From a virus, in the IMG/VR virus record IMGVR_UViG_3300014720_003420, positions 1-30,489 of that record: a DNA stretch of 30,489 bases. One strand, written 5' to 3'. Below, piece after piece: positions 171 to 19,925 of this stretch. Each line of letters begins with the position of its first letter. Within the stretch, counting starts at the first letter, position 1. The notes beneath the pieces were generated by a model. It was not told where the DNA came from. It did no database searches and saw only the letters and a program-made list of their open reading frames with translations. The position numbers and the translations under genes are program-made.

Positions 171-3100
171 ATGACTAATTTAGGCGAGTTAATAGTAGAA
201 CTAAAGCTAGACTCAGTACAATTCACTGCTGATCTTAATAAATTTAAAGCTGATGCCACAAAGGTTGCTGGCGATATTGAGCAAAAAATAAATAATATTT
301 TATCTAAAACCATATCTATAAAAGTAGACGATAAAAGCTTAACTAAGTTAAATGAGCATTTAGATAAAAAGAAGAAACATTTAGACGAAGTAAAAAAGCA
401 TTACGAGAGTAACCCTATAGTCGTAAAAGTAGACAACAAAGAATCAGAAAAAAGTTTAAAAAATTTCAATACTAAATTAGAACAAGAATTAAAGAAAAAT
501 AAAAAATATACAATAGATTACCAGTCCGGCAAAGGATTAAACGATGTAACAAAAATCGTAAAAGATGCTGTAACAAAAGGCATACAAGAAGCATTTACTA
601 GTGTTAAAGCAGAAATTAATGTATCTGCAAGCAGACAGTCAACTAACCAGGTTACTAGCAATACTAGCTCTAATGCAGTAAGCGACAAAAATAGTCAGTA
701 TATAGTAGAAGAGTTAAAAGTATCTAACAAATTATTAAATAAACTTATTGATAGACAAGAAACCCTAATAACAAAAGTTCAGGCTTTAAGATTTGATGGA
801 TCCGGAGGAAGGACTCCAGTTGTAACACAAGAAACACAACAACAAAATAATGTTTCCGTAAGGTCAAGCTCAACAAAACAAGTAATTAATCAACCAGTAC
901 AACCTTCACCTACTCCGCCTCAATTACCAACTCAACAAATTGACGTAACACAATTAAACGCTAGTGTCAATAATCTTATTAATGCTAACGCAAACCTTGG
1001 TGCCACTATTTCAAGCATAGCTACTGCTGCTACAGGCATGGGAAATGAAGCAGCAGTAGCTAACACTCAGATAACTCAATCTGCTATAAAAGCAAAAGAA
1101 ATAAGCGATGAACTAAAAGTAGCAGCTTTAGAAGCATTAAGCATTACCAATCATATTGGAGCAGCACAAACATCAAGCGAAATTATTAAAAAGAATCTTA
1201 GCGATGCATCTGGTTATAGCGATGATATTCCAAATAATCTTGCTATTGCAGCTACTGAGTCTGAACAAGTAAAAAATAACTTTAATGAATCAAATAAATT
1301 AGTTGCTGCTATAAATCAAGATTTTAAAGATAGCAGGATTAGCGTAAAAGCTATTGAGGCTTTGTTTGCTGGTATTGTTACATCACTAGGAACGGTTGCC
1401 AATGATTTAAATAATGTAGCGGGAAAAGTTTCCTCTAATACTAGTGGTAGTAATTCTACTGTTGAAGACATAAAGAAAGCTATAGAACAAAGTCTTGCTA
1501 GTGCTATAATAGCAGCAAATAATAATATTGAAGTTGCAATAAAATCATCTGCTAACCAAATAACAGGCAGTAAAAACTTAGGTGATGTAGTATCTGAGCT
1601 AACAAAAATAATTGGAATTATAAATTCTTTAGATTCATCTATAAAAGCTAGTAAAGCAGATCCTACTAAAATAGATATAGACACAACAAATTTACAAACT
1701 TCTTTAACTGGTGCTAGTGAGCAGTTAAATAATTTTAAGGAACTTGTAGATAACAAGTTTATCCATAGTACAAATGTAGCATCAAATCAACTAGAAGAGT
1801 TAGGTAATGAGTTACAAAAAGTTATAACTAAGTTAAAAACGGAAGTTACTTCACCAGCTGAAACTAGTAAATTACCTAAATCAGTAGAAACTGATTTACA
1901 ACAAATATCTAATAATTGCGAATGCGAAATAAAAGTAGTAAAGTCTGTTGAAACCGGGACTGATAAAGTCGCAGAGCAGGTTAAAAAGTCAGGAGAAAAC
2001 CTTGAAAAAGGAATAAAAGATTTAGCAGAAAATTTTAAGGTAGAATTAGAGGATAACGTTTTAGGGCAGTTTAATGCAGTAGCAACAGAAATTAATAATT
2101 TTGTAACAGAAGCAAAAGATTTACAAAAAAAAGTATCCGATATTAATACTGGATTAGACGGCAATCTTAACGAATTAAACGATAATAACGAAAATCTTAA
2201 AAAAACTGCGGCAGATTTGCGAACCAAATTAAATGGTATTGGAAGCTTAATAGATGATATTGTTGATGAAGCTAAAAAACATTTTAATGGACAGCCTATA
2301 TCTGATGAAATAAATGAGTTCGCCAATAAAATAAAAAAATCAACTAGCTATCTTGAAGATAATATTAAAACTATTCCAAATACTTTGGATGTTAATATTA
2401 AAGCCAAAATGGCACAACAGGCACAAGAATTAATAGAAAAAATATCAGAAAGCACAAAAAAAATTGATTTAGACCCAGTTATAAAAACAGTTGTTGAAAA
2501 AGCTGCAACAAGCTTAAATAGTTTTGGAGATGATTCTTCTAAGCTTTTTGATAGTTTAACAAAATCTGTAGAGTTTAACACAAAAAAAATAGAACAAACT
2601 TTTGAAACTTTTGCAACAAAAATAAATCAAACAATAGATGCTAGTGCCAATGAAATAACTGCTTCTGCAACCAAACAGCAAACAAATAAACTTGGTAATG
2701 AAACTACAACACCCCCAGAATCAGAAACGCAAAAACAAGTTAACATGTCGTTATCTGAGTTTAATTCAGCTGTTGTTGCTACAAGAAATGAATTATTAAG
2801 TATTTTAAATGGATTAAATACTGAATCAACGTCTGCTACTAAAAACATTGAATCGCTTAAAGATTCATTAGATAAATTAACTGAAGAAACAGATCGGTTA
2901 GAAACAAAGTTTAAAGACGTAGCAAATAATAAAGATATTGATAAATTGTTTGAATCAATAGGTAAGCTAAACGACGAATACGATAATTTAAATCCAAAAG
3001 TAAAAGAAAATGTAAATAAGCAAACTGATTTAATAGCAAAACTTAACAATATAGTAGATGAACTTACTACAATTAACTCGTTAACCAAAGAAGGACAACA

Positions 3101-6100
3101 AAATAAATTAAAAGAAATAGAAGATCTTAAAAAGACTGCTACTGAATTGCAAACTAGTGGGTCTGGTCTTAACGATGCAATACTTAATATAACAGAAAAA
3201 GTATCAACTTCTACTAATACTATAAACGCTTTAAACGCACAAAACTTAACTCAAGTTAAAGCAGCAGAGCAAATTCACCAAAAATTAACACAAGTCTTAA
3301 CTAAAATAGATGAAACAGCAGATGAGGCACAAAAAATATCTAATAAATTTAAAAAAGAAGCAAACACGCCTATAGCTTTACCTGAAATAGACACCAGCTC
3401 ATTAAATAAAATTACAGCATATTTAAACAGTATAGCAAATTCGATAAAAATTCAAAGTGAAAAAATTAATGATATTAGTAGTGTTTTATCGTCTTTTAAT
3501 TCTGAAGAATTAAAAAATAATGTAACTAACATAGAATTAGCAGGAAAAAATATAGCAAATGCTGTTCCTAGTATAGTAACTCAAATAGAATCCGTAGCTG
3601 CACAAATAGAAGACGCTGGCAAAGTATTTACAGGTAAAGCCAATACTTTCAATTTAGATCAATTAAGTTCACAATTAAATAATTTAAAAGACGTTGCCAG
3701 TAATCTAGGATCTGAGCTATCAGGATTAAAAGTTGTAGAAATGCAACAAAAAATAGATAGTGTTGAAACTGATGTAGATTCCTTTAATAAATCTATACAA
3801 GATTCTCACACTAATCTCGTTGAGATAAACCATTTAATTAATGATGTAAAAAATGCTGTAAAAAATTATGAAGGTATCGTTCAAAAATCAAATAGCACAG
3901 CAGAAGAAGTAATTACAGCACAATCAAAAGTAGTTAAATCATTAGATGATTTAAACGCAAAATATAAATTAAATGAAACAACAATAGATAACATTAATAA
4001 TAAACACAATGAATTATTTAATAACATATCTAATCTAACTTCTGAAATTGGTAAAAACGAAAATGCCATAAAAGCATTTAGCGACAATCTTCATAACGTA
4101 GACTTTAACAGTGTAGTTGATGGGCTAAAAGAATTAAGTGGTGGATTTGAAGAAAGTGGTAAAACCTTTTTCCAAAATTTAACTACTAAGTTTAATGAAG
4201 CAATTAATGTTTTTACAACTAAAAAAGAAACAGACACTAAATCTAAAAATGAAACTCCTAAACAATTACCTGAGTTAATTCAACTCGAAGAAAATTTAAA
4301 TGACCCTAGCTTGTCTGACGCTATTAAAGAAGTTATAAAAAAAACAATAGAAAAAATTGAGAAAGATATAGAAATTGATATAAGCGAATCAAGCATTGGG
4401 GAAAAAATAAAAGAAAAACTAGTTAACGAACTAGATAATTTGTTATCTAAGATAGAACCAATTAAATTATCAGAATCACAATTAAAACAATATGTTGAAA
4501 TCTTAGAAAATGCTGCATCAAATTTTGGAGCTAATTTAAAAGAAATTGGTACAAACCACGCAGAAGTAATGCGGAATGTTTCTGGTGAATTAGCTGAATT
4601 TAGCAATAAAATTAAAGCAACTACAACAGAACTAGAAAGATTTGATGCTGTTGTAAAAAATGCTGTCACAAAACCTCCAGAACCAAAAGAAAAAGCAGCA
4701 CTTGAAAAAGCAACAGATTCATCAGACAAGTTAAAAGAATCATTAGAAGGTTTAACAGTAATAACCAACGATGTTTCTAGATCTGTACAAAATTTAGGAC
4801 AAAAATTTACTAAACTTGAAGAATTTGAAAATCTAAAACAATCTATTACAGGCTTAGACGTAGAAACCAAAAAATTTAGCTCACAAATAAAACTCGCTAA
4901 TACGTATTTAGAAGGCTTAGATTTTAAGGCAAAACAAACAGAAAGCAGTAAGTTCAAATCTATTGCAGAATCATTTGAATCTACACTAAAAGCATTAACA
5001 AGTGTTGCTGATAATTTAAAACAAGCAAACACTAGTTTTGTTGCGGAAGTTAATGTGTTAAAAACAAGTGTTGCAGGAATTGACGTTAATACGTTTAATG
5101 ACAAAGCAAAAGAATTAGCCAGCGTAGTCAATGGCTTAAAAGATAAATTAAATGAAATTAATCAACAATTATTAAGTGGTAAAGATATAGGAGCATCTTT
5201 AACTAAGTTTAACAGTGAATTAAAAGAAGCGCAACAACAATACAAAAATTTAGCTAGTTTGCAAAGCTCCATAAATACAGAACACGCAAAATTACAAACT
5301 GGAATTCAAGGATTTATAAATTATTTAGATAATAACAAGGAAAATATAGTGGCACCATTAAAAGAAATGGTGCAAACCTTTAAATCTGATTTAGCTGGAT
5401 TACCAGATGCCACTCAAGAGTCTGTAAAAGAATCTTTAACACAACTAGAAGCAAGGGTTACTAGCCTAGACACTATTTTTGGTAACTTCTCTAATAAAAT
5501 TGAAAGCTTTACTTTAGATAATATTGAGGAGAATTTTGAAGAAGTTACAGAAGAAATTAAACGTGAAACGAAAGGTGTTTTTGATTTAATTAAACAGTAT
5601 ATAAATCAACAATTTCCATCAAAGCCTAAAGACGAATTTATATCAGGATTAGACCAAGAATCATTTGATAGACAACGACAAGGATTAGAAGCAAGTTTAT
5701 CATCAATAGTAGATGCAATAACAACATCTGGTAATAATTATGCTAATCAAATAATAGAAGCTACTGTTGCAGCCCAAAAAATAAAAGAAACTAATCTAGA
5801 AATAAGTCAAACAAACAGGGAATTAGTTACGACTACTAAAAATTTAGTAACAGAACTAGGAAACAGCGCAGCTGAAATAAAAAAAGCTACAAATGATTTA
5901 GTAAAAGCAAAACAAGATGAGTTAGACGCTGTTTTAAAAGCAAATAAAGCAACACTAGATGCAGCTACTAATAAATCAAAAGAAAACGTAACGTATTATG
6001 ACAACGTTAAACAAGAGTTAAATAATGCAGTTGTTGTTGCAGTAAGTATAAAGGAAAGTGTAATTAAAATAAAAACACAGTTTGATGAGTTAGTAAAAGA

Positions 6101-9100
6101 AACATTAAACAGCAAAAAGAAAGAGATAACAGATGATGTTAAAACACTTGTTGAAACGCAAAAACAAGAATTAAAAGACAATCAAAATCAAATTACAAAA
6201 GATGTAAATAGTATAGTTAAAAATCTAGAAGCGTTTAATACTTCTTTGTCTAGCAATAATAGTAATACAACTAATCTTGTAAAAGTTAACAAAACACAAG
6301 TTGACACTCTTGCAAAAATTTCTACTGAATTTGAAAGTATATTAAATAAATATAAAACGTTTAGCAATCAAGTTGATAGTCAAGTTAAAAGCTTAACTAA
6401 TTTACCTAATTTTGAAGAGGCTGGAATTGCGTTTCAAGTTAAAATAAACGAATTTAAACAAGCATCCGCTAAGCAAATCGAAGATTTACAAACAGCATTA
6501 AAAGGTGTTATTGGTAGATTAGATTTGTCTGGAACAGAGTTAGCTAACAAAATTAGCAATGTTCAAATTAATTTAGATAGTACAGGTAATGAAATTAAAA
6601 AGCTAGGAAATGTTGCTGAAAAAGCTAGTCAAAATTTAGAAAGATTTGTAGAGCTTAAGTTAGGGGTTAAACAACAACCTGAACTTGAACCAGTTTATGT
6701 TACACAACAACAGCCAACTTCAAAAGCTTCAGTTCATGTTACACAACAACAGCCAACTTCAAAAGCTTCAACTCCTGAAACTCCACCTACTTCAAAAGGT
6801 TTAGATCCAAAAAAATTAAATGAACCTACTTTTCCTCTTGATAAAGATGTTACATCAATAACATCTTTTGAACAACCTTCCGTTGTAGATGCAAAAATTG
6901 TAGCAAACAATATAAATGAAGTGCAAAAAGAATATCAAGAAAAATTTGTAAATAAAGTATGGATTCCATTACTTAAAATATTAAATACAATATATTCTGA
7001 AACTCCTTTTTCAGATGATGATATATTAGAAAAAACTCAAAAGGGAGAAGCATTTCCTCCAGTAAATGAAAAATTTGACAACGCAATTATACGACAAATA
7101 AAAAACTTACTAAATGAATATGAAAAAGTTTTAACAGATGCGGGTGCGTCTAATTTAGAAAGTGTTACTCCTAAAGCTAGAGAAATAGCTAAAGAAATGG
7201 GAGAAACGCTATTAAACCTTGCACAAAAAACCGCAGAAGAGATTCGAGAAAAAATTGGAGAAAAAATTGCCTTTGATCTAATTTTAGCAAACCAAGACAC
7301 TAATCTTGAAGACAATAAAGAATTAGCAAAATACGCTAAAGATGGGGATTTAGCTAAAGAAATAAAAGTTTTAACCGATGCATTGTATGCAATTAAAAAT
7401 GCAGCTAAAGAAGTTGGAACGTATTTTCGTTCGTTATATAAAACAACATCAGGACAAACACAAGGACAATTTGTTGGTGAGTCAGTTGAAATAATGAATG
7501 ATGTAGCGAAAACAAAAAGTTATAATGCTGCAAATAACCAACTTATATCAGAAATTCAGCAAACAGAAAAAAATATCAAAAAACTTATTGCAGAGTCAGA
7601 CAAAGCAGCAAAAAACGTTGCAGATACAGGATCTGAAACAATAGAAGCTAAAACAAAAGAAAACCTTAAAAAAAGTTATAATTTATTTTATGATTTTGTT
7701 AATCAGATTAAACGAGCTTTACAAATTAAATCACCATCTCAAGTTGCTATATATATAGGTGAAATGTTTGGAGAAGGTTTATCAATTGGAATTGAAAAAA
7801 GAGCAGATAAAGTAATTAAAACTGCCAATGAAATGGCAAAAGATCTTGTTAAAACTGTTAAAAAACAATTAGGAATTAACTCAAAGTCAAGAATATTTTT
7901 TGAAATAGGTATACGTTTGCTAGAAGGATTTGAGTCAGGAATACAAATGAAAATGCCTGGAGTTCAAAATTTAATTAATCCACTTTTTCATGCAATATTA
8001 GCGCAAACTCCTGGAGTAGTAGGAGCTGAAATAGGAACTGCAATTATAATATCATTAGCACTATCAATTCAAAAAGGTGATAGCATTATATCAAAAGCAT
8101 TTAGAAAAATAGTTAATAATATTCTTTTTGTTGTTGATATAATGCAAAATAGTTTAGATGTGTATTCAGGACCATCTGGACTATTTCCAAATTTAGCGCC
8201 AGCTGTTCACCCAGGTATTGGTTTAACAATATATGCCCTTAAAACAACTTTACAATTACTTAAAGAAATTGGAGAAGAACACAAATTAAATAATAAAAGA
8301 TTATTACCTTCTTTACTTTATTCTGCTAAAAACCGATTTGATAAAATACGAAACGATAAATCATTAAATGTTGCAAGAGAAGGTGTTGAGCATGTAGGAA
8401 ATCTTGTTAGAGGTGGAGAAATGGTTCAATATGGTGCAAAATCTCCAATCATAGCAGTTATTAACGCAGCGCAAAGTGGAGCAACAGTTATACTAAGAAG
8501 TATTCGGATTATTGAATCTATGTATAAAGCCTATCAAGACACTGTGGCAAAAATACAAAGTAATCCATCCATTGACTTCTCAGCTACATTCCAAAACACC
8601 CTTGTTGATTATTTAAGAAGTTTCAATATAACTAAAAAAGATATTTTACAAGCATTAGCTAGTATAGGGCAGGTAGTACCAAAAATAGATTCTACTGGAA
8701 CAGGAAAAATAGTATCAGATCCTACTGTTGGAGGTGCGGCAGTTGGCGCTGCTGTTGCCATAGAAGTAATGGATATGATAAAAAAAGCCATTATTGACAA
8801 AACTAAAGAAAAAATGGCACAAGGTATAGATTTTAAAGATGCGTTTAAAACCAGCTTAGAAGACATTCAATCGCCAGAAGCAATAACAAAAATATTAACG
8901 AATGTTGCTGATTCTTTAAAACCTCAAATAAAACATCTTACTAATGCGGGTGAAGACATTATTGACGGTTTAATTAAAGGTATTTTAAATAGAATGGGAA
9001 TGGTAGCTCGTGTTATATATTTAACAAGTAAAGCTATTGAAGACCAAATTAAAGAAAATATGGGCATTACATCACCTTCAAAAGTGATGATAGAAGTAGG

Positions 9101-12100
9101 TTTGATGATTACAGAAGGATTAGCAATTGGAATTAAAAAAGGAACCAACAAAGTATTAAACGCTATAGAATTTGTAGGTAATGCAATAAAACAAAAAGAA
9201 TTACCTCAATTAACTGACAAAGAAACAAAACAAAATATAAATACTGATGTAACTAGAAGATTAAAACATATTGGTAAGCAAACATCACAAGGGTTTACAC
9301 AAGGCTTACGTAGTAATAGCATGGCAGAAGAAACTGGAGAAGAAGTAAGAAAAGTAATTAAGAAATTTAGAACTATATTAAAAATAGCGTCTCCTTCTCA
9401 GGTAACTAGGCAATTTGGTATAAACTCCGGAGAGGGTTATGGCATTGGTTTTGTGGAAGCACTAAATAACTCTAATAAAGAAATACAAAACGCTTTAAAA
9501 CAAATAATTCAAAGTTTAAAGACTGAATTTAGCGCTGTTGGTGTTAGCACAGGTTTTTCAGACGATCTTCAAAAAGTTTTAAGAGAAATGGATGATATTG
9601 AGAAAAAACAAGAAAGAATTATAGAATTACGTAACAAAGGATTAATAACAGAAAAAGAAGCAAGACAAGAATTACAAAGATATAATGATGAACTATTAAA
9701 GCAATCACAATTAGTTAACAAAATTAAACGAGATGCACAAAAAGAATTAGACCAAACAGCAGCACCCGGAACTACAGCTTATAAACTAACGACAGCAAAT
9801 GTTGTAAATGATGATTTTGCAAATAAAGAATTAGAAAATCAAATGATGCTTGAAAGAAGACAAAGAAGAATTAAACCAGTGGACATAAGAAATGTAGATG
9901 TACCTGAATCAATACATAAAGGAGATGACAATATTAGATATGCTTACGATAGAAGCATAGAATTACAAAAAGAATTAAAAAGACAACAGAAAGATCCAGC
10001 AATAAAACAGTTAAAAAAAGACCTTGAAAGAAACCGAAACCTAATTATTGAAGAATACAAAAAAAACGACATAACACTAAGAGAAGCTTTAGAGAGGCTA
10101 AACCAACAAAATGAAAACACAATACAAGAATTTTATGCAGCAGGTGGAAGTCCAATAGATTTAACTCAAGATAATATAAGACGCAATTCTAAAACATTTG
10201 GACAAAACGCGCAAGATTTAGGAGAAGGTATAGCAGATGTAACGGAGCAGGCTCAGGCGCAAGCTAATAGATTTGGTGACTTTACCGATGTAGTTAGAGA
10301 CTTTTATTTTGAAGCGGCACAAAAATTATTAGATTTAGTAAAAGCCATGGAGGAGATAGAACCGATTCAACGGCGATTCCTAGTGGCTATGAATGAAAAT
10401 AAACAAAAAGCTGACAGAGCATTTAAACTAGCTCAATCTACAGCAGAGCAAAACCGAATACCAATTATGTCTGGTTTAGAAGGTTACAGCCAAATGCTAG
10501 AAGCGGCTAAAGGCACAAGACTAGAAGGCGCAGATGTGCAAAACCTATTTGAAGGTATATCTGCTGCATTGTCTAGTATGTCTATCACTGGACGAGACGC
10601 AGATTTAGTATTTCTAGCGTTTACTCAGATGATTGCACGTGGTAAAGTGTCAATGGAAGAATTAAGACAACAGTTGTCTGAGAAATTCCCACCTGCCATG
10701 CGGATTTTTGCAAAAGCCTTAGGAACCACTGTGTCTGGCTTAACAGAGACAGTATCCCAAGGTTTGGTAATGTCGGATAACGCGTTATCAAAAGTTGCCA
10801 AAACATTAAACGAAGAATATGGTAATACAGCTAGAGGCGCAAAAGGTATTGGATTGGCGTTAACAGAACTATCTAATACTGGCGTTGCTATGCTCATAAA
10901 AATTACTGAATCTTTTAGTGATTTAGTTATAGTAGTCGCACAAAGCCTAAGTGCTATTGGTAATTTAATAAAAGATAACATTACTATAATAGCACCAATA
11001 GCAGCCGGTGTAATAGCATTGTTTAGCGCAGCATTGTTAGCTGGCATAATTACAATATTTAATAGCACTGGATTAACAACTGCTATATTAGCATTAAGTG
11101 GTAAATTTGTAACTACTTTTGCTAGTGGTATAGTAACAATGGCTCCGGTAATTGCATTAGCAATAGGAGAGGGATTGGCATCTGCTATAGGCGCAAAAAC
11201 AATAACTGAAATGATATCTAATAAAATAAAAGAAGGTGTAGATGGAGTAATGATATCGTTTAATACTAGTGGTACACTAGGGTTTATTACTAATTTATTA
11301 AATCCTATAGCGCTTTTAATTAATGCAGTTCAGTTTTTAGTAAAAGTAATTAAAGAAATTCCTAAAGCAGTTGAAAAACTTCGCAATGATAGTGGCGCAA
11401 TTGCAGGCATATTAAATTATCTAATACGTTTTATAGAAAGAGTTAAAGTAGGAATTGAGGCATTAATTGGCTCTATAACTGGTTTAGCGCAAATATTTGG
11501 ACTAGCTGCGATAAATGTAACTATTTTTAAAAGTATAATAGTGAGTAGTTTAACAGCGATAAAAGTGGCAACACTTGCGCTCGGTGTTGTATGGAACTCA
11601 GTTTTTGGTAAAGGTGTTGTTATAGTTGGAATAATGCTTGCAGTAGTTGCAGCTATATCTGCTATTGATAATAACCTTGATGAGTTTAAAAACCAGATAA
11701 ACAATGTTTTAGCTTACATGGGAGCAGCTATTTATGGTTTTATGTTAATACTTAAATTAGTCAAAAAAGATATTGTAGGATTTATTGGATTATTAGCTGT
11801 TATACCTACAATGATGTATTTACAAGGTGACTTTAGTAGTCCTGCGCTAGAGGCAATGAAAAACCTTAGTAAATCAATGAAAGACGGATTAGATAGATTA
11901 AAAGATGCCGTTAATAGTTTTAGTAAAGCAACAAATACATCAACAACCAAAGTTGAACAATCAGTTAAAGGATTTGAATTAAATATTCTTAAATTTTTTA
12001 ATCCTAATTTACAATCCTTTAAATCTGATACCCTTGTATTACAGCAAAGAGAAAGATTAAATAAAAATTTAAAAGACGATATTGAACGAAAACCTGATAA

Positions 12101-15100
12101 TTTACTTCATGAATTTGCATTATCTCTTTTAGGAATAGATGTCCATGCTCAATCTCAAATCAAACGTCATAGAGACAGCTTAGACAACGACTTTAAAGAT
12201 ACAAGTGGAAATAAAGTAAAAGTTCCAAATGATGTAGAAAATTTTTCTAGAAGAGAATATTTTGATTATGTAGACAGAAATAAAATAGACTACAACAATT
12301 GGTGGAACCCAGCTCCAAGTATAACTGCTTTTGGAAACACTTTGTTAGATTTAGACAAAGAAACAGAAGAGATATTAGCAACACGTTTTAAAAGTTATTT
12401 TGAAACGCTTAAAAAAGAAGCTAGAGGTAACTTAACAGTTAGTGACCGAACAATTATTGAATCATTAACAAGTTTTTCCAAAGAAGTAGAATCTGCAATG
12501 AAGGAAATAACTAAACTTACAAACAAAGAATTGAGTGAAAGCGAACGACAAAGAATTAAAAAAGAATTAGAAGGCATAGATAAAGAAATACAAGCAAAAC
12601 AGGTTGAAAGAGCTAAAGCAGACAAAGACCATAAGACAGAAGAAGTAGCCAAAATAGACAATGACATAGCAAAATTAGAAAAACAAAAAAATGAAAAGTT
12701 AAGCCCAATTAAAGCAGGTTTAAATGCTTTAGAAAAAATGAAAAGCTCTATACAGTCTGCTGGAGAAATGTTAATAAAAGAAGTTTCTGATGAAAAAGTT
12801 AAAAAAACAATTAAAAAAGATATAGAAAGAATAACAGAAAATTTTGAAAAATTAAGCGGTTTATTTAAAGATTTAGTAAAAGGAGACTTTGACGAAAGTT
12901 ATAATAAAGCATTAAAAGCTTTTAATGCTTTTGAAAAAGCTTATGAAGATTTTAAAAATAATTTAGAAACAGAAATAAATGTGTTAACCGCTAGTTTATA
13001 CAAAGGTAATTACAATTCAGCAACAATAGCTAGAGGAGAAAAGATTTTAGAAATAAAACAAGCTGATGCAAATATTAAAGCTTTAAACCAAAAAATAGCA
13101 TTAGATATAAAAATGCTGGCTTTAACACAAGGTCATACAAGAGCAAATAGTGATGAAGAAATTAAAAGCAAAATAGAAGAGCTTAAACAAGGATTAATGG
13201 AAAACAGAAATGCTTTAACTGCAGAACAGCTTAAAAAGTTAAAACTTAGTAAAGAGCTTAAAGAAGAAATTGAAGAAAATAAAAAAGCGTTAGAAGATTA
13301 TCAGCTTGAGCAACTGATACAAATAAAACAAATGCAGATAGAGCTAGAGAAAGCTAAAGCAGAATTAGAAAATTTAAGATTAGACAATAAACTAAAAGTA
13401 TTATTAAAAGATATTAAAAGCTCAAACTTTAAAAGCTTTATGGAGTCGGCGTTTAATTTAATAAAGAGTATAAATGAAATTATAGCTAAAAAACTAGAAA
13501 ATGATAAAAAACAATTAGAAGATCAAAAAAGATTAAGAGAAGAAGCAGAAAAACGAAAACAGATAGAAGATCAAAAAATAAATGAAAAAGCGTTTGAAAA
13601 TTTGGTAATTCAATCAAATTTAGATTTAACTAACGCTTTTAATACTACTTTTAAAACATTAACAGAAGTAACCAAACAAGCTGGAAATGCAATAAAAGAC
13701 CTTACAGGATTAATAGAGGGAATATTTAACAGATTTAACATACAAATAAATAAATCTAACAATGAAATAAGCAAAACAAATGCAGCAGCTCAAAAAGTAA
13801 GTTTAAATATAGAACAAAGTGGATTAAGCTTATCTAAATTTAATAACAGGATAACAATTGCAAACAACTCATTAGGTAAAACAGTTAATGCGTTTCAGTA
13901 TATAAATAATATATTAGAGAAAATGCCGCAAACTCCTGTTGTTACAATTAATTATGGTAGCGGTGGCAATCAACCATCAAACCAGCTTCCTTTTTCTAAT
14001 ATTGGTACAACTACAACTTCAAGCGGTTCTAACGGTAATAATGCAACTAATGTAGCTACTGCGTCAAATAACAATAATGATGTAGCCAAAACTAATGTAA
14101 CTACTGTAGCTACTAACGGTAATAATGCAACTAATGTAGCTTATGCATCAAAACCAAACTTTACTAATCATCTGCAAGCAGCTTTAAATCTGTTTCCTAG
14201 TACAAAAGGTAGTGATAAAATTGCAGATAATCTAGGAGTGCAAAGAACAACACAAGTGGCTAAAGGCAACCCAGGAACAAATGTTGGTAAAGGAAAAAAC
14301 AGAGAGTTGTTACGCAGTAACAGTAACAAACCTGACCTTTTAAGAGAATTGCTTGGAAATGTATTCGGAGGAATAGGTGTAAGCACCAATGAAATTAAAT
14401 GGTTTCAAGGGCAAATGAATTTTAACTCCGAAGACGAATTTAATAGATTCGCAAATCCACTTATTTTAATAGATAAAATAAATAAAACAATAGAATCTGC
14501 TGAAAAAAATAAAGTTAATCTTGATCCCGAACTAGGAAAAGCGGCAGAATTTGTAATAGATAATTTATTACCTTATATTCCGCAAAAAGGAAGAGATTTT
14601 ATATCAAAAGCTATACAAGACAGAAGATCTAAATCTAAAATAAAGTTTAAATATAATCCTAATGACCAAAATGAAATAGAAACAATAACAAATATTGCAG
14701 AAAATTATTTAGTACCAAATAGTCTTCAATCACATATAGATCGTGTACAAGCTGTTAAAACTTATATGAATATTGTAGTACAAGAATTAACAGCTAAAGG
14801 CAGCCTTAAAGACAGCAACATACCGAGTCCAAATTTAAAAGAAAAAGCAAATTTTGCTTTACGTAATATAGATAAAATAGCTTCACCGGATTTGATAAAA
14901 AGAAACGCATTACAAGCCAATTATCAATTAATAAAAGACATAGTCGAGAGAGACCGACTTACTACAGATAGTGGAATGACAGCTCGCAGTCTTATAGAGC
15001 AAGAGAAGCTAAGAAATCCTGGAAACACTAATAACCAAAACCCTGTAAACCCTAGAAACCCTGTAAACCCTAGAAACCCTGTAAACCCTAGAAATTCTGT

Positions 15101-18100
15101 AAACCCTAGAAACCCTGTAAACCCTGTAAACCCTGTAAACCCTAGAAACCTTGTAAACCCTAGAAACCTTGTAAACCCTGGAAACACTAATAACCAAAAT
15201 CCTGTAAACCCTACAATCCCAGGAGCTAATACACGCAAAGCAATTCCTGTAACTACTACACCCATAACAACCCCTGTAGCTAATACACCCACAACAATCC
15301 CAGGAGCTACTACACCCACAACAATCCCAGGAGCTACTACACCCAAGGCAACCCCTGTAGTCCTTCCAGTTATACCCCCAATAGATTTTTCAGGTCTTTT
15401 CCCAAAACCTAATAATTCTAGACAAGGTGTATTAGGTATTCAAACGGTTAGCCAGGCTTCTAATGCATCTCGTCAAATGACATTTAATGTGGGAACAGTT
15501 TTAATCAATGCACAATTAGTTAAACTTGTAGCATCTGGCGGATTGCCTGTTGGTAATCAAGCTGTACAAGTTTCTAGGAATTCCAAACAATCAATTCCTT
15601 CTAAAACTTCTCCTCCAAATTCTTCTAAAACTCCTTCTATTGATTTGACAAATTCAGAGTCAATAAGAGAACTAAACGAAGTAAATAGACAAATAGAACA
15701 AGCAAAACTTGACTCATTAATACTAGACTTTGGAATACAATTTGATAATATAAGAAACACAAACCCGGGTTCAGAAAGAAATGAAGCTACAAAAGCTAGA
15801 ACCGCAGCACGTAATAGCCTTCTAAAACTTTCAGGAAATCTTACCAATAGAGAAGAAGCAACAATTACCAAAGCTGAAAGAGAAGCTGACATTAAACAAC
15901 AACAATCAACGTTTACAGATCAAATAAAAGAATTAGGAAAACAAATTGAAGGCTACAATAAGTTAATTACAGGAATAAACAATGCTATACAAGAAATTCA
16001 AAACTCTCCTCTTGACGATACAACAAAAAGCAGTTATATTAACAGACTTAAGCCGATTTTAGAAAAAGTTAGAAGCGGATTAGAAACAGCAACAACAGAT
16101 AAAGAAAAGATAGAAGAAGAGTACAAACTAGCAAAACCTTTAATTGATAAAGCACTAGGTGATTTACCAAATTTTCTAGAGACCGTACTAACTACGCTTA
16201 ATTTAGGTGATCAGTTACGTGCAACTGAAGCTCAAATTCAAGTATTTGAAACTAGAAAAGATAATCTTGAAAAAATTAAACAACAAATAAGAAATTTAAC
16301 AAAAGAAGAACAACTTGAATTAGACTCAATATTAACTGTAAATATTCCATTTTTAGAGAATATAAGAGAATATACTCAGTTAAGACTAGCATATTTACAG
16401 GCTCTTAAAGAAAATTCAACTGAAGCCAACAAATTAAAAGCAAGACTTGATCTATCAAGTAAAAGACTACAAGAATTGTATAATTTTAATATAGGGTCAA
16501 AAGAAATAAGTGAAGCAACAAAAGACATTGAACAACTAATTGCAGACAGCCCAAACACTGCTATAATAGAAGCAAAAAAAGGAAGAGTAAAAGAAGTATC
16601 AGGCATCAACTATGAAATAGGTGTTCTAGGATCTAATAAAGAAGTTTTGGAATTAGCTGGATTACCAATAGACTCAATAGAACAAAAATTAGTTGAATTA
16701 GGCGAAACATTAAAAATACTAGAAAACATTAAATTGAGTCCAGAGATGGTAGAACTCCTTAAAGGCAGGGTGTCTACTTTAAGTAAAAGAGCAGAAGATG
16801 AAAAAACACAAGCAAGAGAAAATACTATATCTGAAGCAACTATCCAATCGTTAGAGTTACAAGGATTAACTTCAGAATTTCAGCTAAATGCAATAAAGCG
16901 TGATAGACTTATACAAAATGCAACTTTTGACAGAGATAAAGCAAACGATGATAATGCTCTTAGACTTAAACTATTAAACGAACAAGCAATACATAACTAC
17001 GAAACTGCTATAAAAGCTTTTCAAGAAGCTAGAGACAATGAAATAGCAAAACTAAATACAACTGATGAGCCAATTAATCAAGCTGATAAAACTGACGAAA
17101 TTAGTAGAATTGATGATACTTATTCCACTCAAGAAAAACAAGCATCAGCCGTTAAAGACGCTGCAATTAAAACGGCACAAGAAGAACAAACAAAACAAGC
17201 TACTGAAATTAATCAAGATCATGCAAGAGCAATTGAAGCAGCTAATCTTGCGCACAAAGATTTTTTAGCAACATTAAAAGATAGTATTGTAGTTACAGCT
17301 AAACAAAATATTGGTAGCGAACTATCCACCTATGTAATGAATGATTTAGTAATGGGTGTAGATGCAGTAACTGGAGAAGCTAGAGACCTTAGTAATGAAT
17401 TAAAAGGATTAGAAAGAGTATTATACAATGTCACTAAAGCTATTCTAAACTCAATCATTCAATTAGCTACAAAAACAGTAGTTGATAGCGCTCTTAACTG
17501 GTTTGTTGGGCTATTTACACCAAAAGTAGGAGGCAAAGCATTAGGTGGTGTTATAACAAACTATGCAGAAGGTGGATTAGTACCATCTATAGACGCAGCA
17601 TTTACTAAAGAGCGTTCGTTAAACGGTGGTATACAACCTGTATTAGCAGTATTAACTCCAGGCGAACGAGTGTTAACAGTTAGTCAAAATAAAAGGTTTG
17701 AGGAATTACAATTAAATAAAGTATTAAACTACGCTAATGGCGGCATAGTGTCTCCAACAGAAAGACAATATCATCAAACTATAAATAACGAAAAACCTAA
17801 AAACACACCTAATATACCAACTACCATAGAATTAAATAGTAGTAAAGATGAATCTAATGTAGACTCAGTTCAATTGCGTAACGGAACACAAAATGATTTA
17901 GTAATGGATGTAGATGCAGTAACTGGAGAAGCTAGAGACCTTAGTAATGAATTAAAAACAGTAGTTGATAGCGCTCTTAACTCGTTAAACGCAGCATTTA
18001 CTAAAGAGCGTTCGTTAAACGGTGGTATGCAGCCTGTATTAGCAGTATTAACTCCAGGCGAACGAGTGTTAACAGTTAATCAAAATAAAAGGTTTGAGGA

Positions 18101-18548
18101 ATTACAATTAAATAAAGTATTAAACTACGCTAATGGCGGTATGGTATCTCCCATGGATAGCAAAGTATTAAACTACGCTAATGGCGGTATGGTATCTCCC
18201 ATGGATAGCAAAGTATTAAACTACGCTAATGGTGGTATGGTATCTCCCATGGATAGCAGAGTATTAGCTTATGCAAATGGCGGTATGGTATCTCCAGCAG
18301 AAAGACAATATCATCAAACTATGAATTACGTAAACGGTGGCTATGTAGCACCACCTATAAATAACGGAGAAGCTAATAACAGTCAAAAACCTGAAAATAC
18401 ATTTAATATACCAATTACCATAGAATCAAATAGTGGTAAAGATGAATCTAATATAGACCCAATTCAATTACGTAACGCAATACAAAGCGCTGTATTAACA
18501 GAAATCCAAAGACAGCAAAGACAAGGAGGAATTTTACCTAGAAAATAG
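171..18548 (+). CDS. Giant tail tape-measure protein (6125 aa)
   Basis: This is the tail-length ruler of the virion and probably also the protein ejected with the DNA. The N-terminus (LGELIVELKLDSVQF) is typical of tape measures. A classical tape-measure domain lies at about 3384-3554, with GKVSMEELRQQL and KFPPAMRIFAKALG. Four copies of an SPSK/SPSQ...G...EG..IG motif lie at about 2521, 2571, 2968 and 3074. Hydrophobic, membrane-like segments lie near 3604-3630, 3646-3675, 3816-3833 and 3854-3885. Charged coiled coil dominates residues 1-2150 and about 4050-4500. Proline/asparagine repeat linkers sit near 4620-4660 and 4957-5060. The C-terminus repeats LTPGERVLT and YANGGMVSP motifs. The reading frame is unbroken for 18.4 kb. 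Lambda gpH has 853 residues and Thermus P23-45-type phages about 5000, so this is exceptional. Start ATG 171 fits the family; only a weak AGGA lies 14 nt upstream. Confidence 0.97.
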   Translation: MTNLGELIVELKLDSVQFTADLNKFKADATKVAGDIEQKINNILSKTISIKVDDKSLTKLNEHLDKKKKHLDEVKKHYESNPIVVKVDNKESEKSLKNFNTKLEQELKKNKKYTIDYQSGKGLNDVTKIVKDAVTKGIQEAFTSVKAEINVSASRQSTNQVTSNTSSNAVSDKNSQYIVEELKVSNKLLNKLIDRQETLITKVQALRFDGSGGRTPVVTQETQQQNNVSVRSSSTKQVINQPVQPSPTPPQLPTQQIDVTQLNASVNNLINANANLGATISSIATAATGMGNEAAVANTQITQSAIKAKEISDELKVAALEALSITNHIGAAQTSSEIIKKNLSDASGYSDDIPNNLAIAATESEQVKNNFNESNKLVAAINQDFKDSRISVKAIEALFAGIVTSLGTVANDLNNVAGKVSSNTSGSNSTVEDIKKAIEQSLASAIIAANNNIEVAIKSSANQITGSKNLGDVVSELTKIIGIINSLDSSIKASKADPTKIDIDTTNLQTSLTGASEQLNNFKELVDNKFIHSTNVASNQLEELGNELQKVITKLKTEVTSPAETSKLPKSVETDLQQISNNCECEIKVVKSVETGTDKVAEQVKKSGENLEKGIKDLAENFKVELEDNVLGQFNAVATEINNFVTEAKDLQKKVSDINTGLDGNLNELNDNNENLKKTAADLRTKLNGIGSLIDDIVDEAKKHFNGQPISDEINEFANKIKKSTSYLEDNIKTIPNTLDVNIKAKMAQQAQELIEKISESTKKIDLDPVIKTVVEKAATSLNSFGDDSSKLFDSLTKSVEFNTKKIEQTFETFATKINQTIDASANEITASATKQQTNKLGNETTTPPESETQKQVNMSLSEFNSAVVATRNELLSILNGLNTESTSATKNIESLKDSLDKLTEETDRLETKFKDVANNKDIDKLFESIGKLNDEYDNLNPKVKENVNKQTDLIAKLNNIVDELTTINSLTKEGQQNKLKEIEDLKKTATELQTSGSGLNDAILNITEKVSTSTNTINALNAQNLTQVKAAEQIHQKLTQVLTKIDETADEAQKISNKFKKEANTPIALPEIDTSSLNKITAYLNSIANSIKIQSEKINDISSVLSSFNSEELKNNVTNIELAGKNIANAVPSIVTQIESVAAQIEDAGKVFTGKANTFNLDQLSSQLNNLKDVASNLGSELSGLKVVEMQQKIDSVETDVDSFNKSIQDSHTNLVEINHLINDVKNAVKNYEGIVQKSNSTAEEVITAQSKVVKSLDDLNAKYKLNETTIDNINNKHNELFNNISNLTSEIGKNENAIKAFSDNLHNVDFNSVVDGLKELSGGFEESGKTFFQNLTTKFNEAINVFTTKKETDTKSKNETPKQLPELIQLEENLNDPSLSDAIKEVIKKTIEKIEKDIEIDISESSIGEKIKEKLVNELDNLLSKIEPIKLSESQLKQYVEILENAASNFGANLKEIGTNHAEVMRNVSGELAEFSNKIKATTTELERFDAVVKNAVTKPPEPKEKAALEKATDSSDKLKESLEGLTVITNDVSRSVQNLGQKFTKLEEFENLKQSITGLDVETKKFSSQIKLANTYLEGLDFKAKQTESSKFKSIAESFESTLKALTSVADNLKQANTSFVAEVNVLKTSVAGIDVNTFNDKAKELASVVNGLKDKLNEINQQLLSGKDIGASLTKFNSELKEAQQQYKNLASLQSSINTEHAKLQTGIQGFINYLDNNKENIVAPLKEMVQTFKSDLAGLPDATQESVKESLTQLEARVTSLDTIFGNFSNKIESFTLDNIEENFEEVTEEIKRETKGVFDLIKQYINQQFPSKPKDEFISGLDQESFDRQRQGLEASLSSIVDAITTSGNNYANQIIEATVAAQKIKETNLEISQTNRELVTTTKNLVTELGNSAAEIKKATNDLVKAKQDELDAVLKANKATLDAATNKSKENVTYYDNVKQELNNAVVVAVSIKESVIKIKTQFDELVKETLNSKKKEITDDVKTLVETQKQELKDNQNQITKDVNSIVKNLEAFNTSLSSNNSNTTNLVKVNKTQVDTLAKISTEFESILNKYKTFSNQVDSQVKSLTNLPNFEEAGIAFQVKINEFKQASAKQIEDLQTALKGVIGRLDLSGTELANKISNVQINLDSTGNEIKKLGNVAEKASQNLERFVELKLGVKQQPELEPVYVTQQQPTSKASVHVTQQQPTSKASTPETPPTSKGLDPKKLNEPTFPLDKDVTSITSFEQPSVVDAKIVANNINEVQKEYQEKFVNKVWIPLLKILNTIYSETPFSDDDILEKTQKGEAFPPVNEKFDNAIIRQIKNLLNEYEKVLTDAGASNLESVTPKAREIAKEMGETLLNLAQKTAEEIREKIGEKIAFDLILANQDTNLEDNKELAKYAKDGDLAKEIKVLTDALYAIKNAAKEVGTYFRSLYKTTSGQTQGQFVGESVEIMNDVAKTKSYNAANNQLISEIQQTEKNIKKLIAESDKAAKNVADTGSETIEAKTKENLKKSYNLFYDFVNQIKRALQIKSPSQVAIYIGEMFGEGLSIGIEKRADKVIKTANEMAKDLVKTVKKQLGINSKSRIFFEIGIRLLEGFESGIQMKMPGVQNLINPLFHAILAQTPGVVGAEIGTAIIISLALSIQKGDSIISKAFRKIVNNILFVVDIMQNSLDVYSGPSGLFPNLAPAVHPGIGLTIYALKTTLQLLKEIGEEHKLNNKRLLPSLLYSAKNRFDKIRNDKSLNVAREGVEHVGNLVRGGEMVQYGAKSPIIAVINAAQSGATVILRSIRIIESMYKAYQDTVAKIQSNPSIDFSATFQNTLVDYLRSFNITKKDILQALASIGQVVPKIDSTGTGKIVSDPTVGGAAVGAAVAIEVMDMIKKAIIDKTKEKMAQGIDFKDAFKTSLEDIQSPEAITKILTNVADSLKPQIKHLTNAGEDIIDGLIKGILNRMGMVARVIYLTSKAIEDQIKENMGITSPSKVMIEVGLMITEGLAIGIKKGTNKVLNAIEFVGNAIKQKELPQLTDKETKQNINTDVTRRLKHIGKQTSQGFTQGLRSNSMAEETGEEVRKVIKKFRTILKIASPSQVTRQFGINSGEGYGIGFVEALNNSNKEIQNALKQIIQSLKTEFSAVGVSTGFSDDLQKVLREMDDIEKKQERIIELRNKGLITEKEARQELQRYNDELLKQSQLVNKIKRDAQKELDQTAAPGTTAYKLTTANVVNDDFANKELENQMMLERRQRRIKPVDIRNVDVPESIHKGDDNIRYAYDRSIELQKELKRQQKDPAIKQLKKDLERNRNLIIEEYKKNDITLREALERLNQQNENTIQEFYAAGGSPIDLTQDNIRRNSKTFGQNAQDLGEGIADVTEQAQAQANRFGDFTDVVRDFYFEAAQKLLDLVKAMEEIEPIQRRFLVAMNENKQKADRAFKLAQSTAEQNRIPIMSGLEGYSQMLEAAKGTRLEGADVQNLFEGISAALSSMSITGRDADLVFLAFTQMIARGKVSMEELRQQLSEKFPPAMRIFAKALGTTVSGLTETVSQGLVMSDNALSKVAKTLNEEYGNTARGAKGIGLALTELSNTGVAMLIKITESFSDLVIVVAQSLSAIGNLIKDNITIIAPIAAGVIALFSAALLAGIITIFNSTGLTTAILALSGKFVTTFASGIVTMAPVIALAIGEGLASAIGAKTITEMISNKIKEGVDGVMISFNTSGTLGFITNLLNPIALLINAVQFLVKVIKEIPKAVEKLRNDSGAIAGILNYLIRFIERVKVGIEALIGSITGLAQIFGLAAINVTIFKSIIVSSLTAIKVATLALGVVWNSVFGKGVVIVGIMLAVVAAISAIDNNLDEFKNQINNVLAYMGAAIYGFMLILKLVKKDIVGFIGLLAVIPTMMYLQGDFSSPALEAMKNLSKSMKDGLDRLKDAVNSFSKATNTSTTKVEQSVKGFELNILKFFNPNLQSFKSDTLVLQQRERLNKNLKDDIERKPDNLLHEFALSLLGIDVHAQSQIKRHRDSLDNDFKDTSGNKVKVPNDVENFSRREYFDYVDRNKIDYNNWWNPAPSITAFGNTLLDLDKETEEILATRFKSYFETLKKEARGNLTVSDRTIIESLTSFSKEVESAMKEITKLTNKELSESERQRIKKELEGIDKEIQAKQVERAKADKDHKTEEVAKIDNDIAKLEKQKNEKLSPIKAGLNALEKMKSSIQSAGEMLIKEVSDEKVKKTIKKDIERITENFEKLSGLFKDLVKGDFDESYNKALKAFNAFEKAYEDFKNNLETEINVLTASLYKGNYNSATIARGEKILEIKQADANIKALNQKIALDIKMLALTQGHTRANSDEEIKSKIEELKQGLMENRNALTAEQLKKLKLSKELKEEIEENKKALEDYQLEQLIQIKQMQIELEKAKAELENLRLDNKLKVLLKDIKSSNFKSFMESAFNLIKSINEIIAKKLENDKKQLEDQKRLREEAEKRKQIEDQKINEKAFENLVIQSNLDLTNAFNTTFKTLTEVTKQAGNAIKDLTGLIEGIFNRFNIQINKSNNEISKTNAAAQKVSLNIEQSGLSLSKFNNRITIANNSLGKTVNAFQYINNILEKMPQTPVVTINYGSGGNQPSNQLPFSNIGTTTTSSGSNGNNATNVATASNNNNDVAKTNVTTVATNGNNATNVAYASKPNFTNHLQAALNLFPSTKGSDKIADNLGVQRTTQVAKGNPGTNVGKGKNRELLRSNSNKPDLLRELLGNVFGGIGVSTNEIKWFQGQMNFNSEDEFNRFANPLILIDKINKTIESAEKNKVNLDPELGKAAEFVIDNLLPYIPQKGRDFISKAIQDRRSKSKIKFKYNPNDQNEIETITNIAENYLVPNSLQSHIDRVQAVKTYMNIVVQELTAKGSLKDSNIPSPNLKEKANFALRNIDKIASPDLIKRNALQANYQLIKDIVERDRLTTDSGMTARSLIEQEKLRNPGNTNNQNPVNPRNPVNPRNPVNPRNSVNPRNPVNPVNPVNPRNLVNPRNLVNPGNTNNQNPVNPTIPGANTRKAIPVTTTPITTPVANTPTTIPGATTPTTIPGATTPKATPVVLPVIPPIDFSGLFPKPNNSRQGVLGIQTVSQASNASRQMTFNVGTVLINAQLVKLVASGGLPVGNQAVQVSRNSKQSIPSKTSPPNSSKTPSIDLTNSESIRELNEVNRQIEQAKLDSLILDFGIQFDNIRNTNPGSERNEATKARTAARNSLLKLSGNLTNREEATITKAEREADIKQQQSTFTDQIKELGKQIEGYNKLITGINNAIQEIQNSPLDDTTKSSYINRLKPILEKVRSGLETATTDKEKIEEEYKLAKPLIDKALGDLPNFLETVLTTLNLGDQLRATEAQIQVFETRKDNLEKIKQQIRNLTKEEQLELDSILTVNIPFLENIREYTQLRLAYLQALKENSTEANKLKARLDLSSKRLQELYNFNIGSKEISEATKDIEQLIADSPNTAIIEAKKGRVKEVSGINYEIGVLGSNKEVLELAGLPIDSIEQKLVELGETLKILENIKLSPEMVELLKGRVSTLSKRAEDEKTQARENTISEATIQSLELQGLTSEFQLNAIKRDRLIQNATFDRDKANDDNALRLKLLNEQAIHNYETAIKAFQEARDNEIAKLNTTDEPINQADKTDEISRIDDTYSTQEKQASAVKDAAIKTAQEEQTKQATEINQDHARAIEAANLAHKDFLATLKDSIVVTAKQNIGSELSTYVMNDLVMGVDAVTGEARDLSNELKGLERVLYNVTKAILNSIIQLATKTVVDSALNWFVGLFTPKVGGKALGGVITNYAEGGLVPSIDAAFTKERSLNGGIQPVLAVLTPGERVLTVSQNKRFEELQLNKVLNYANGGIVSPTERQYHQTINNEKPKNTPNIPTTIELNSSKDESNVDSVQLRNGTQNDLVMDVDAVTGEARDLSNELKTVVDSALNSLNAAFTKERSLNGGMQPVLAVLTPGERVLTVNQNKRFEELQLNKVLNYANGGMVSPMDSKVLNYANGGMVSPMDSKVLNYANGGMVSPMDSRVLAYANGGMVSPAERQYHQTMNYVNGGYVAPPINNGEANNSQKPENTFNIPITIESNSGKDESNIDPIQLRNAIQSAVLTEIQRQQRQGGILPRK
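6693..6770 (+). repeat. 39-bp tandem duplication inside the tape-measure gene
   Basis: Two adjacent 39-bp units (6693-6731 and 6732-6770) differ at a single base and encode VYVTQQQPTSKAS and VHVTQQQPTSKAS. They start a proline/threonine-rich linker that separates the long N-terminal coiled-coil half from the region with the SPSK motifs. The near identity points to a recent slippage or duplication event. Confidence 0.95.
14029..14141 (+). repeat. 29-bp direct repeat in an Asn/Thr-rich linker of the tape measure
   Basis: The same 29 bp occur at 14029-14057 and 14113-14141, encoding the NGNNATNVA motif twice. The surrounding stretch (about 13960-14160) is rich in Asn, Thr, Ser and Gly and looks like a disordered linker after the central coiled coil. 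Confidence 0.9.
15039..15182 (+). repeat. Eight 18-bp units encoding NPVNPR-type hexapeptides
   Basis: Eight consecutive in-frame 18-bp units, consensus AACCCTGTAAACCCTAGA, encode the hexapeptide NPVNPR with variants (NSVNPR, NPVNPV, NLVNPR, NLVNPG). The block is flanked on each side by GNTNNQ, itself a duplicated segment. The units vary at few bases, so copy number is likely to change by slippage without breaking the frame. The encoded stretch should be an extended proline-rich linker within the tape measure. Confidence 0.95.
15285..15338 (+). repeat. Two exact 27-bp units encoding a TIPGATTPT-type repeat
   Basis: Two identical 27-bp units lie head to tail at 15285-15311 and 15312-15338, with a third partial copy after them. 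They continue the Pro/Thr-rich linker that begins with the NPVNPR block. Confidence 0.9.
17340..18490 (+). repeat. Tandem duplication of the C-terminal module of the tape measure
   Basis: A module beginning NDLVM.VDAVTGEARDLSNE (17340) runs through LTPGERVLT, KVLNYANGG, ERQYHQT and SKDESN..QLRN to about 17890. It then starts again at 17892 with the same order of blocks to about 18480. Many blocks are nearly identical at the DNA level (17597-17755 against 17991-18150). The second copy lacks two internal segments, including the piece encoding LERVLYNVTKAILNSIIQL, and has extra 48-bp units. This looks like a whole-module tandem duplication followed by internal deletion. Confidence 0.9.
18114..18305 (+). 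repeat. 48-bp tandem units encoding KVLNYANGGMVSPMDS
   Basis: Three almost identical 48-bp units (18114-18161, 18162-18209, 18210-18257) are followed by a diverged fourth (18258-18305). Each encodes KVLNYANGGMVSPMDS or a close variant. A single related unit occurs earlier, near 17715-17760. The YANGG motif is common at the C-termini of tape measures, where one copy usually suffices. Confidence 0.95.
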
Positions 18549-18577
18549 TCAACTATATTAATAAGGAGGATATAATT

Positions 18578-19237
18578 ATGAAAAGCTATATAGCTAAAAT
18601 CGAACCATCGCAACAACAAAACTCTCCTTATTTTGAAGTGGCAACGCAGGTAGCTATTGGACTTTTGGTAGATTTAATACCAGTCATAGCCTCCACCATC
18701 TTTGCCTGGCTATTTTTTAAATTTAAAAACCAGCTTTTTGTTATACTTTCTAAACTGGAAGCCATAACTCATTCCCATTTGCCAGAAATTGATGTAGAAG
18801 AAGAAGCTATTATACAAAATTATTTTAAAGAGTTAAGTCAAAACGGATTTAATCGTATAACTTTTTTTATGTTAGATAATTTTCATAAAAAAAATAAGTT
18901 TATTTACGCTAAAACATTTTATAGCTTTATTGATTATAGCACAGAAAAAGCAATCTTAGAAGAAAATAAATATAATTATTCTTTTGTCAGTTTAGAAATA
19001 AACAACTTAATAAAACAAGATAGAGTGTTAGCAATATATAATAATTACACTAAAGGATTTATAAACACTGCATGGTTAAAACATAGAAAAATTAAATCCT
19101 ATGCAATCTATTTAATTAATAAAAAATACACAGGATTTATTTTATTAGAAAAAACTCAATGTCATTTTACTTGCCCAGTAAATACTCAAAAAATCCAAGA
19201 AATACTACAAAAAATTGATGAAATTATAAACAACTAA
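18578..19237 (+). CDS. Single-pass membrane protein of unknown role, 219 aa
   Basis: A strong Shine-Dalgarno (AAGGAGGA, 18563-18570) fixes the start 29 nt after the tape-measure stop, so the two are probably co-transcribed. One hydrophobic helix (about residues 25-49) follows a short polar N-terminus; the remaining 170 residues are soluble. Their pattern of alternating strands and helices, ending in AIYLINKKYTGFILLEK, resembles a GAF-type fold, which is an inference from pattern only. No lysozyme, holin or spanin signature is seen. Its position after the tape measure could suit a role in DNA entry, lysis or exclusion, but none of these is shown. Its stop overlaps the opposing dCTP deaminase stop by 4 nt. 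Confidence 0.8.
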   Translation: MKSYIAKIEPSQQQNSPYFEVATQVAIGLLVDLIPVIASTIFAWLFFKFKNQLFVILSKLEAITHSHLPEIDVEEEAIIQNYFKELSQNGFNRITFFMLDNFHKKNKFIYAKTFYSFIDYSTEKAILEENKYNYSFVSLEINNLIKQDRVLAIYNNYTKGFINTAWLKHRKIKSYAIYLINKKYTGFILLEKTQCHFTCPVNTQKIQEILQKIDEIINN

Positions 19238-19827: not shown

Positions 19828-19897
19828 TACCAGCAACTACTCCAATAACAAAAACACTGTACACAAAGATAACATAAAAAAATCTTTTATTCAACTC

Positions 19898-19925
19898 TTG
19901 ACAAAGGTAAAAAATGTGTTATATT
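19898..19925 (+). promoter_or_regulatory. Sigma70-type promoter for the winged-helix gene
   Basis: TTGACA at 19898-19903 and TATATT at 19920-19925, separated by 16 bp, form a strong promoter. Transcription would begin near 19932, which rules out the ATG at 19914 as a start and leaves 19959 or 19983. A 6-bp inverted repeat (TGACAA at 19899, TTGTCA at 19933) brackets the promoter and may be chance. Confidence 0.75.

Follow-up and report, generated by a model that had tools for sequence, protein, structure and literature searches.

A 6125-residue tape measure protein from a freshwater virus, with a predicted tail of about 1 µm

Lambda gpH, which is Katsura's protein ruler, has a length of 853 aa, and its role and the tail module type to which it belongs (J, K, L) are shared by the locus described here. 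The nearest named relatives of this locus are the Cylindrospermopsis (Raphidiopsis) siphophages CrV-01T and Cr-LKS4, whose tape measure proteins (TMPs) comprise 4416 aa (MH636380 gp064) and 2987 aa (OQ625504 g67), respectively, and whose TMP genes are in both cases followed by a gene for the same 233-aa protein and by a dCTP deaminase gene. Cr-LKS4 carries a long non-contractile tail (PMC12507012), and a literature search retrieved no tail length for either phage. Giant TMPs combined with very long tails are represented by the Thermus phages P23-45, with a TMP of 5002 aa (PMC10770324) and a tail of >800 nm (PMC9022992), and P74-26, with a TMP of 5006 aa and a tail of “nearly 1 µm” (PMC10034513), the published record. 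The Gordonia phages Hotorobo, Woes and Monty likewise possess very long TMPs (genes of 9.97-9.98 kb) matching tails of ~540 nm, equivalent to 0.162 nm/aa (PMC4982279). Cryo-EM of HFTV1 has shown a TMP assembled as a hexameric coiled coil in register with the rings of the tail tube (PMC12494034).

In the current work, the analysed stretch of DNA, referred to as the window, is a linear virus record of 30,489 bases. Its features are listed below by window position, strand and identity, with residue numbers referring to the TMP.

171..18548, + strand: giant TMP gene, 6125 aa, single frame matched by Pfam TMP_3, NCBIfam tape_meas_nterm and tape measure families of PHROG
171..605, + strand: conserved N-terminal head (residues 1-145, MTNLGELIVEL...), ~40% identical to CrV-01T, Cr-LKS4, G001 and G003
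618..7520, + strand: variable “ruler” stretch (~residues 150-2450), proline-poor, amphipathic-helical and nearly without detectable relatives
7719..9518, + strand: SPSxV...G...GL..GI motif region (~residues 2517-3116), PHROG TMP matches, 29% identical to CrV-01T residues 610-1157
10338..10883, + strand: TMP_3 / tape_meas_nterm domain (residues 3390-3571, SMEELRQQLxEKFPPAM), from Pfam, NCBIfam and AF2
10881..11831, + strand: hydrophobic cluster of about ten membrane-type stretches (residues 3571-3887), from hydropathy
13968..15770, + strand: Pro/Asn/Ser/Thr-rich linker, probably disordered (residues ~4600-5200), from composition; no relatives found
15038..15360, + strand: tandem repeats kept in frame, with an 18/36-nt array (NPVNPR) and a 27-nt array; the assembly is weak here, and the second contig breaks off at 15152
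17181..17912, + strand: C-terminal domain, first copy (residues 5671-5914), 43% identical to the Cr-LKS4 C-terminus
17892..18545, + strand: C-terminal domain, second copy, with a 48-nt repeat x3.8 at 18114-18295; DNA stretches 96-98% identical to the first copy
18578..19237, + strand: protein following the TMP in this phage group, 219 aa, 32% identical to CrV gp065 / LKS4 g68 in the same place
19234..19836, - strand: dCTP deaminase, a syntenic neighbour and not a tail part (PHROG 1663 E 2.6e-52, Pfam DCD), 68% identical to CrV and LKS4
25740..26462, - strand: minor tail protein L (Pfam Phage_tail_L E 4e-37), 92% identical to CrV L
26813..27673, - strand: tail assembly protein K (PHROG 30, Prok-JAB), 91% identical to Cr-LKS4 K
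27670..28428, - strand: minor tail protein (weak PHROG 14 match), 95% identical to CrV and LKS4
29155..29601, - strand: short tail protein adjoining J, 92-97% identical to CrV and LKS4
29601..30488, - strand: central fibre J, C-terminal part, cut by the contig end (PHROG 31 E 1e-57), 89-92% identical to LKS4 and CrV J

An earlier note on this DNA had claimed an unbroken frame of 6125 residues, and 171-18548 is confirmed as a real, intact single frame: it opens with an ATG at 171, its stop ends at 18548, and its 6125 codons contain no internal stop, compared with 744 and 844 stops in the remaining two + frames across the same interval. A chance open frame was ruled out, with p ~10^-220 for 6125 stop-free codons at the window's overall stop-triplet frequency. 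GC content at the three codon positions (~0.40-0.49 / 0.25-0.40 / 0.12-0.22) is even along all 18 kb, as expected of one coding gene, and both ends of the protein (N-terminus MTNLGELIVELKLD, C-terminus AVLTEIQRQQRQGGILPRK) are kept in relatives. An independent metagenomic match, IMG/VR contig 3300013132_005079, corresponds to 15152-30489 at 99.985% identity and gap-free, and spans both copies of the C-terminal domain, the 48-nt repeats and the boundary at which the diverged left part meets the tail tip block. The second copy of the C-terminal domain, being a recent tandem in-frame duplication (region 17340-18486), is thus seen in the second contig too.

An assembly artefact, in which pieces of two TMP genes were joined or repeat copies mis-counted and the actual TMP has fewer residues or a different construction, could be argued from the repeat arrays at 15038-15360 and 17340-18486, from the termination of the second contig inside the first of these (in the 18/36-nt array at 15038-15220), and from the coverage of residues 1 to ~5000 by one contig only, as no second contig was found for that part. 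Such an artefact is nevertheless considered very improbable. The longest exact repeat measures 35 bases within 171-15037 (71 bases in the whole window), so mis-joining of that part by repeats is unlikely, and the codon-position GC is uniform; mis-counted copies would, moreover, be expected to alter the length by no more than a few per cent. The order of head, SPS region, TMP_3, hydrophobic cluster and C-terminus is the same in relatives, and frames similar in size and layout occur in other metagenomes, with two of them, G002 and G050, each from a separate metagenome, sharing 93% identity end to end over 6235 residues.

The assignment of this intact frame as a siphophage TMP of known kind is well supported, and the identification of the protein as a tape measure in the earlier note is borne out by curated models, PHROGs and structure comparison alike. 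Pfam TMP_3 (PF20155) matched residues 3390-3571 with an E value of 1.7e-18 and 67.4 bits (cut-off 41), while NCBIfam tape_meas_nterm (TIGR02675) matched the same residues with an E value of 4.6e-12 and 46.1 bits (cut-off 21.35), such that the HMM check against phage tape measures which had been suggested gave matches above cut-off for both curated models. Many PHROG tape measure families matched around residues 2400-3090 and 3380-4390; TMP_2 (PF06791) gave no match in the 6125-aa protein. An AF2 model of residues 3370-4000, based on an alignment of 14 sequences (the window and relatives), contains a helical domain over TMP_3 with pLDDT values mostly of 60-86. Foldseek comparison of this model returned N-terminal regions of phage tape measures with E values down to 8.6e-18, the viral matches being almost all tape measure proteins where named, and comparison with PDB structures returned generic long helices only. 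The TMP of Salmonella phage YSD1 also carries a TMP_3-type region matching that of the window, although it is 4.3 times shorter and the identity amounts to 23% over ~270 residues. The so-called N-terminal TMP domain sits mid-protein, preceded by a variable helical stretch of great length and followed by membrane-type stretches which are also present in the compared relatives, but in smaller number. Taken with its helical, proline-poor and hydrophobic segments and with the tail genes on the same contig, the match to curated models places the protein among phage TMPs.

Relatives of the TMP were collected by scanning viral contigs with the TMP_3-region alignment and measuring the frames found; exact peptide patterns from the window TMP had given no match in viral contigs because its variable parts are too diverged, and the alignment was needed instead. 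The resulting set of 24 TMPs (window included) ranges from 2608 to 6256 aa, the longest being G002 (6256), G050 (6235), G077 (6228), the window (6125), G057 (6123), G062 (5846) and G054 (5772 aa). The window TMP is longer than any found in the literature, but it is not the longest of all, as three uncultured relatives exceed it. In a tree of the TMP_3 domain the giants occupy at least two separate positions, probably three; the branches of the window and G002 are long, and many of the forks are weak. When genome contigs were scanned with TMP_3, a single cyanobacterial locus was obtained, in a Crocosphaera MAG, besides distant ones, and a scan of genome contigs with K found nothing.

The site of the length differences among these relatives was located by using the conserved SMEEL motif as an anchor in 23 TMPs. 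The portion before SMEEL has a mean of 2272 residues (sd 927) and the portion after it a mean of 2293 (sd 249), and ~84% of the variance in TMP length lies before TMP_3, a descriptive figure, the rows being related. L153 and L161, which are 95-99% identical, differ by a single in-frame gap of ~300 residues before TMP_3, while G077 and L148 are 86% identical over their last 3000 residues and differ by ~1700 residues before that. In the two isolates, CrV-01T and Cr-LKS4, the DNA is 98.5% identical over 32 kb and 90-99% identical over most other compared stretches, whereas a DNA alignment of their TMP genes is confined to the 3' end and the very start. The encoded proteins differ in length by 1429 residues; their final 287 residues are 84% identical, and the aligned parts upstream of these 26-36%. 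The window TMP belongs to this Cylindrospermopsis-phage group, as it shares with both isolates the N-terminal head, TMP_3, the C-terminal end and the downstream neighbours (a gp065 homologue and dCTP deaminase); the TMPs of the isolates are, however, 1700-3100 residues shorter, mostly before TMP_3, with 20-43% identity in the aligned parts. Compared with its relatives, the extra length of the window TMP is located mainly in the fast-evolving helical stretch before TMP_3, of which residues 150 to ~2440 had no detectable relative within the collected set.

Over most of its length the TMP is a proline-poor amphipathic helix. Its hydrophobic residues recur with a period of 3.4-3.7 (z=31 versus local shuffles, whole protein), and no excess was found at strand and control periods in the same periodicity test. 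The helical period is raised in nearly all 500-residue stretches up to ~residue 5500, with z values of 7-13 across residues 1-2500 and a peak at 3.55 in residues 150-2570, and proline is scarce except at ~4600-5200 and at the end of the protein. AF2 modelling of residues 1101-2100 without an alignment gave 82% helix and no strand at a pLDDT of only 46, and this model is taken as a hint of helix only. All AF2 models of the protein are helical, though mostly of low confidence.

Not every residue of a TMP need act as ruler, since P23-45 has a virion RNA polymerase as the N-terminal part of its TMP (PMC10770324). Part of the extra N-terminal length in the window might accordingly represent cargo, i.e. 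an enzyme or ejected protein, with a tail of perhaps 0.6-0.8 µm. Several residue ranges of the window TMP are indeed without known relatives, and an HExxH motif (HEMFH) is found near residue 1600 in three uncultured giant relatives, G057, G062 and G077, the last of which also gives a sub-threshold SprT-like match (E 0.024); metallopeptidase cargo is therefore possible within these three TMPs. In the window, cargo is judged unlikely. Neither the HExxH motif nor the DxDxD RNA polymerase signature occurs in its 6125 residues, and a fusion of the P23-45 type is consequently not found, so that enzyme cargo, although possible in the group, is not indicated here. The N-terminal half contains no Pfam enzyme domain and, in NCBIfam, shows only an SMC/Rad50-type coiled-coil resemblance far under cut-off; peptidoglycan hydrolase and peptidase domains were likewise not found in the window TMP (Pfam, NCBIfam, HExxH motif search). 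The helical periodicity across residues 1-2500 also speaks against cargo, as does P23-45 itself, which retains its >800 nm tail with the polymerase included (PMC9022992).

The two Thermus phages resemble the window in their giant TMP with transmembrane stretches and in a very long tail (predicted in the case of the window), but differ in their host and in TMPs that carry a DFDGD RNA polymerase and a metallopeptidase (PMC10770324); DFDGD was located at 779 in the P23-45 TMP and likewise at 779 in that of P74-26. A blastp comparison of both Thermus TMPs with the window TMP gave no match. Separately, a segment of ~110 residues of the P74-26 TMP (L113, 3146-3249) is 35-38% identical to stretches in the cyanophage-type TMPs L161, L153 and G003, which are relatives of the window TMP.

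By a further reading, the protein is cut or matured in another way, and only a portion of it remains in the tail to act as ruler. The duplicated C-terminal domain might be read in this way, yet the frame contains no protease or intein match (Pfam, NCBIfam), and this explanation is held to be highly unlikely. Lambda gpH does lose a C-terminal part during assembly, the cut taking only a small end.

Several further proteins encoded beyond the TMP gene are without family matches. At the DNA level, the tail tip block at 25715-30489 matches CrV-01T and Cr-LKS4 with 88-93% identity, whereas the window outside this block shows ~70% DNA identity to the same phages or is detectable as protein only. This sharp mosaic (25715-30489 versus 1-25700) has a junction spanned by the second contig. 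Relative to CrV-01T, the block of TMP, 219-aa protein and dCTP deaminase is inverted with respect to J...L...gp055-gp056. On likeness to CrV-01T and Cr-LKS4 alone, the host of this freshwater phage is probably a filamentous cyanobacterium near Cylindrospermopsis/Raphidiopsis. No tRNA or Rfam element was found in the window. A dispersed repeat of ~140-160 nt at 28975-29128, foldable into several hairpins and without Rfam match, recurs at numerous sites across CrV-01T, Cr-LKS4 and uncultured relatives (L001, L002, L003, L004, L005, L007, L011, L014); it forms the 5' part of the ORF at 28428-29150, the real start of which is probably near 28970. The Cr-LKS4 record (OQ625504) additionally contains ~9.7 kb of genes repeated inverted at its end (g82-g94 and g104-g116; L001 32669-42385 and L003 7410-17126), which could be a terminal inverted repeat or else an artefact of assembly, and annotates two CRISPR arrays (87526-88160 and 88835-89093; L003 3527-4161 and 4836-5094).

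For calibration of tail length, seven phages were employed, with tail lengths taken from papers and TMP lengths from records or papers. Besides the Thermus pair, these are YSD1 (220 nm, PMC9022992; 1431 aa; 0.154 nm/aa), Mic1 (400 nm, PMC7156551; 2572 aa; 0.156 nm/aa), Aphanizomenon phage CL131 (361 nm, PMC6293099; 2131 aa; 0.169 nm/aa), Hotorobo (tail and ratio as above; 3327 aa) and MinS1 (260 nm, PMC8876498; 1155 aa; 0.225 nm/aa), the last being an outlier. The ratio is thus 0.154-0.169 in four phages and at least 0.16 in the Thermus pair, and the rule of ~0.15 nm per residue on which the earlier note had relied holds in all but MinS1. At the ratios of these other long-tailed phages, 6125 residues predict a tail of ~0.94-1.04 µm, and linear fits to the calibration phages give 957-1080 nm. 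For CrV-01T and Cr-LKS4 the fits predict tails of ~700-775 nm and 490-520 nm, respectively. The previously proposed figure of ~0.9 µm consequently stands as a prediction of the order of size, with the value itself recalibrated slightly upward. The Gordonia TMPs, matching tails of known length, are about half as long as that of the window and belong to phages of actinobacterial hosts. A tail of ~1 µm, at or above the published record, is a sound prediction. Possibly neither the linker at ~4600-5200 nor the duplicated C-terminus adds to tail length.

The interpretation considered likely is that the frame encodes the TMP of a lambda-type, non-contractile-tailed phage, probably of a cyanobacterium, and that the helical length of this TMP sets a tail of ~0.9-1.1 µm. 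Several copies of the TMP would form a long helical bundle within the growing tail tube, with assembly started by the C-terminal end of the TMP together with the tip proteins, and rings of the tube would stack along the bundle until its end is reached. The hydrophobic segments are thought to aid passage of the DNA across the inner membrane at infection. More tentatively, and with slightly less than an even chance in our estimate, tail length may be a fast-evolving, exchangeable trait, in that similar freshwater phages would swap or resize the helical N-terminal ruler to place tails of ~0.45 to >1 µm on nearly the same tip, possibly tuned to the thickness of the host sheath or serving to evade superinfection exclusion aimed at the TMP.

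The TMP family, with its span of 2608-6256 aa, makes the ruler rule directly testable; the isolates CrV-01T (4416) and Cr-LKS4 (2987) amount to a natural counterpart of Katsura's ruler experiment in a nearly isogenic pair, and close uncultured relatives, with in-frame gaps of 300 to 1700 residues between them, mark where the ruler is resized. The group also poses the question of why ~18 kb of a phage genome is devoted to one tail protein. Should tail length track the number of residues, the tails of these phages would be longer than any others known, and such tails would then occur in ordinary fresh water as well as among hot-spring phages.
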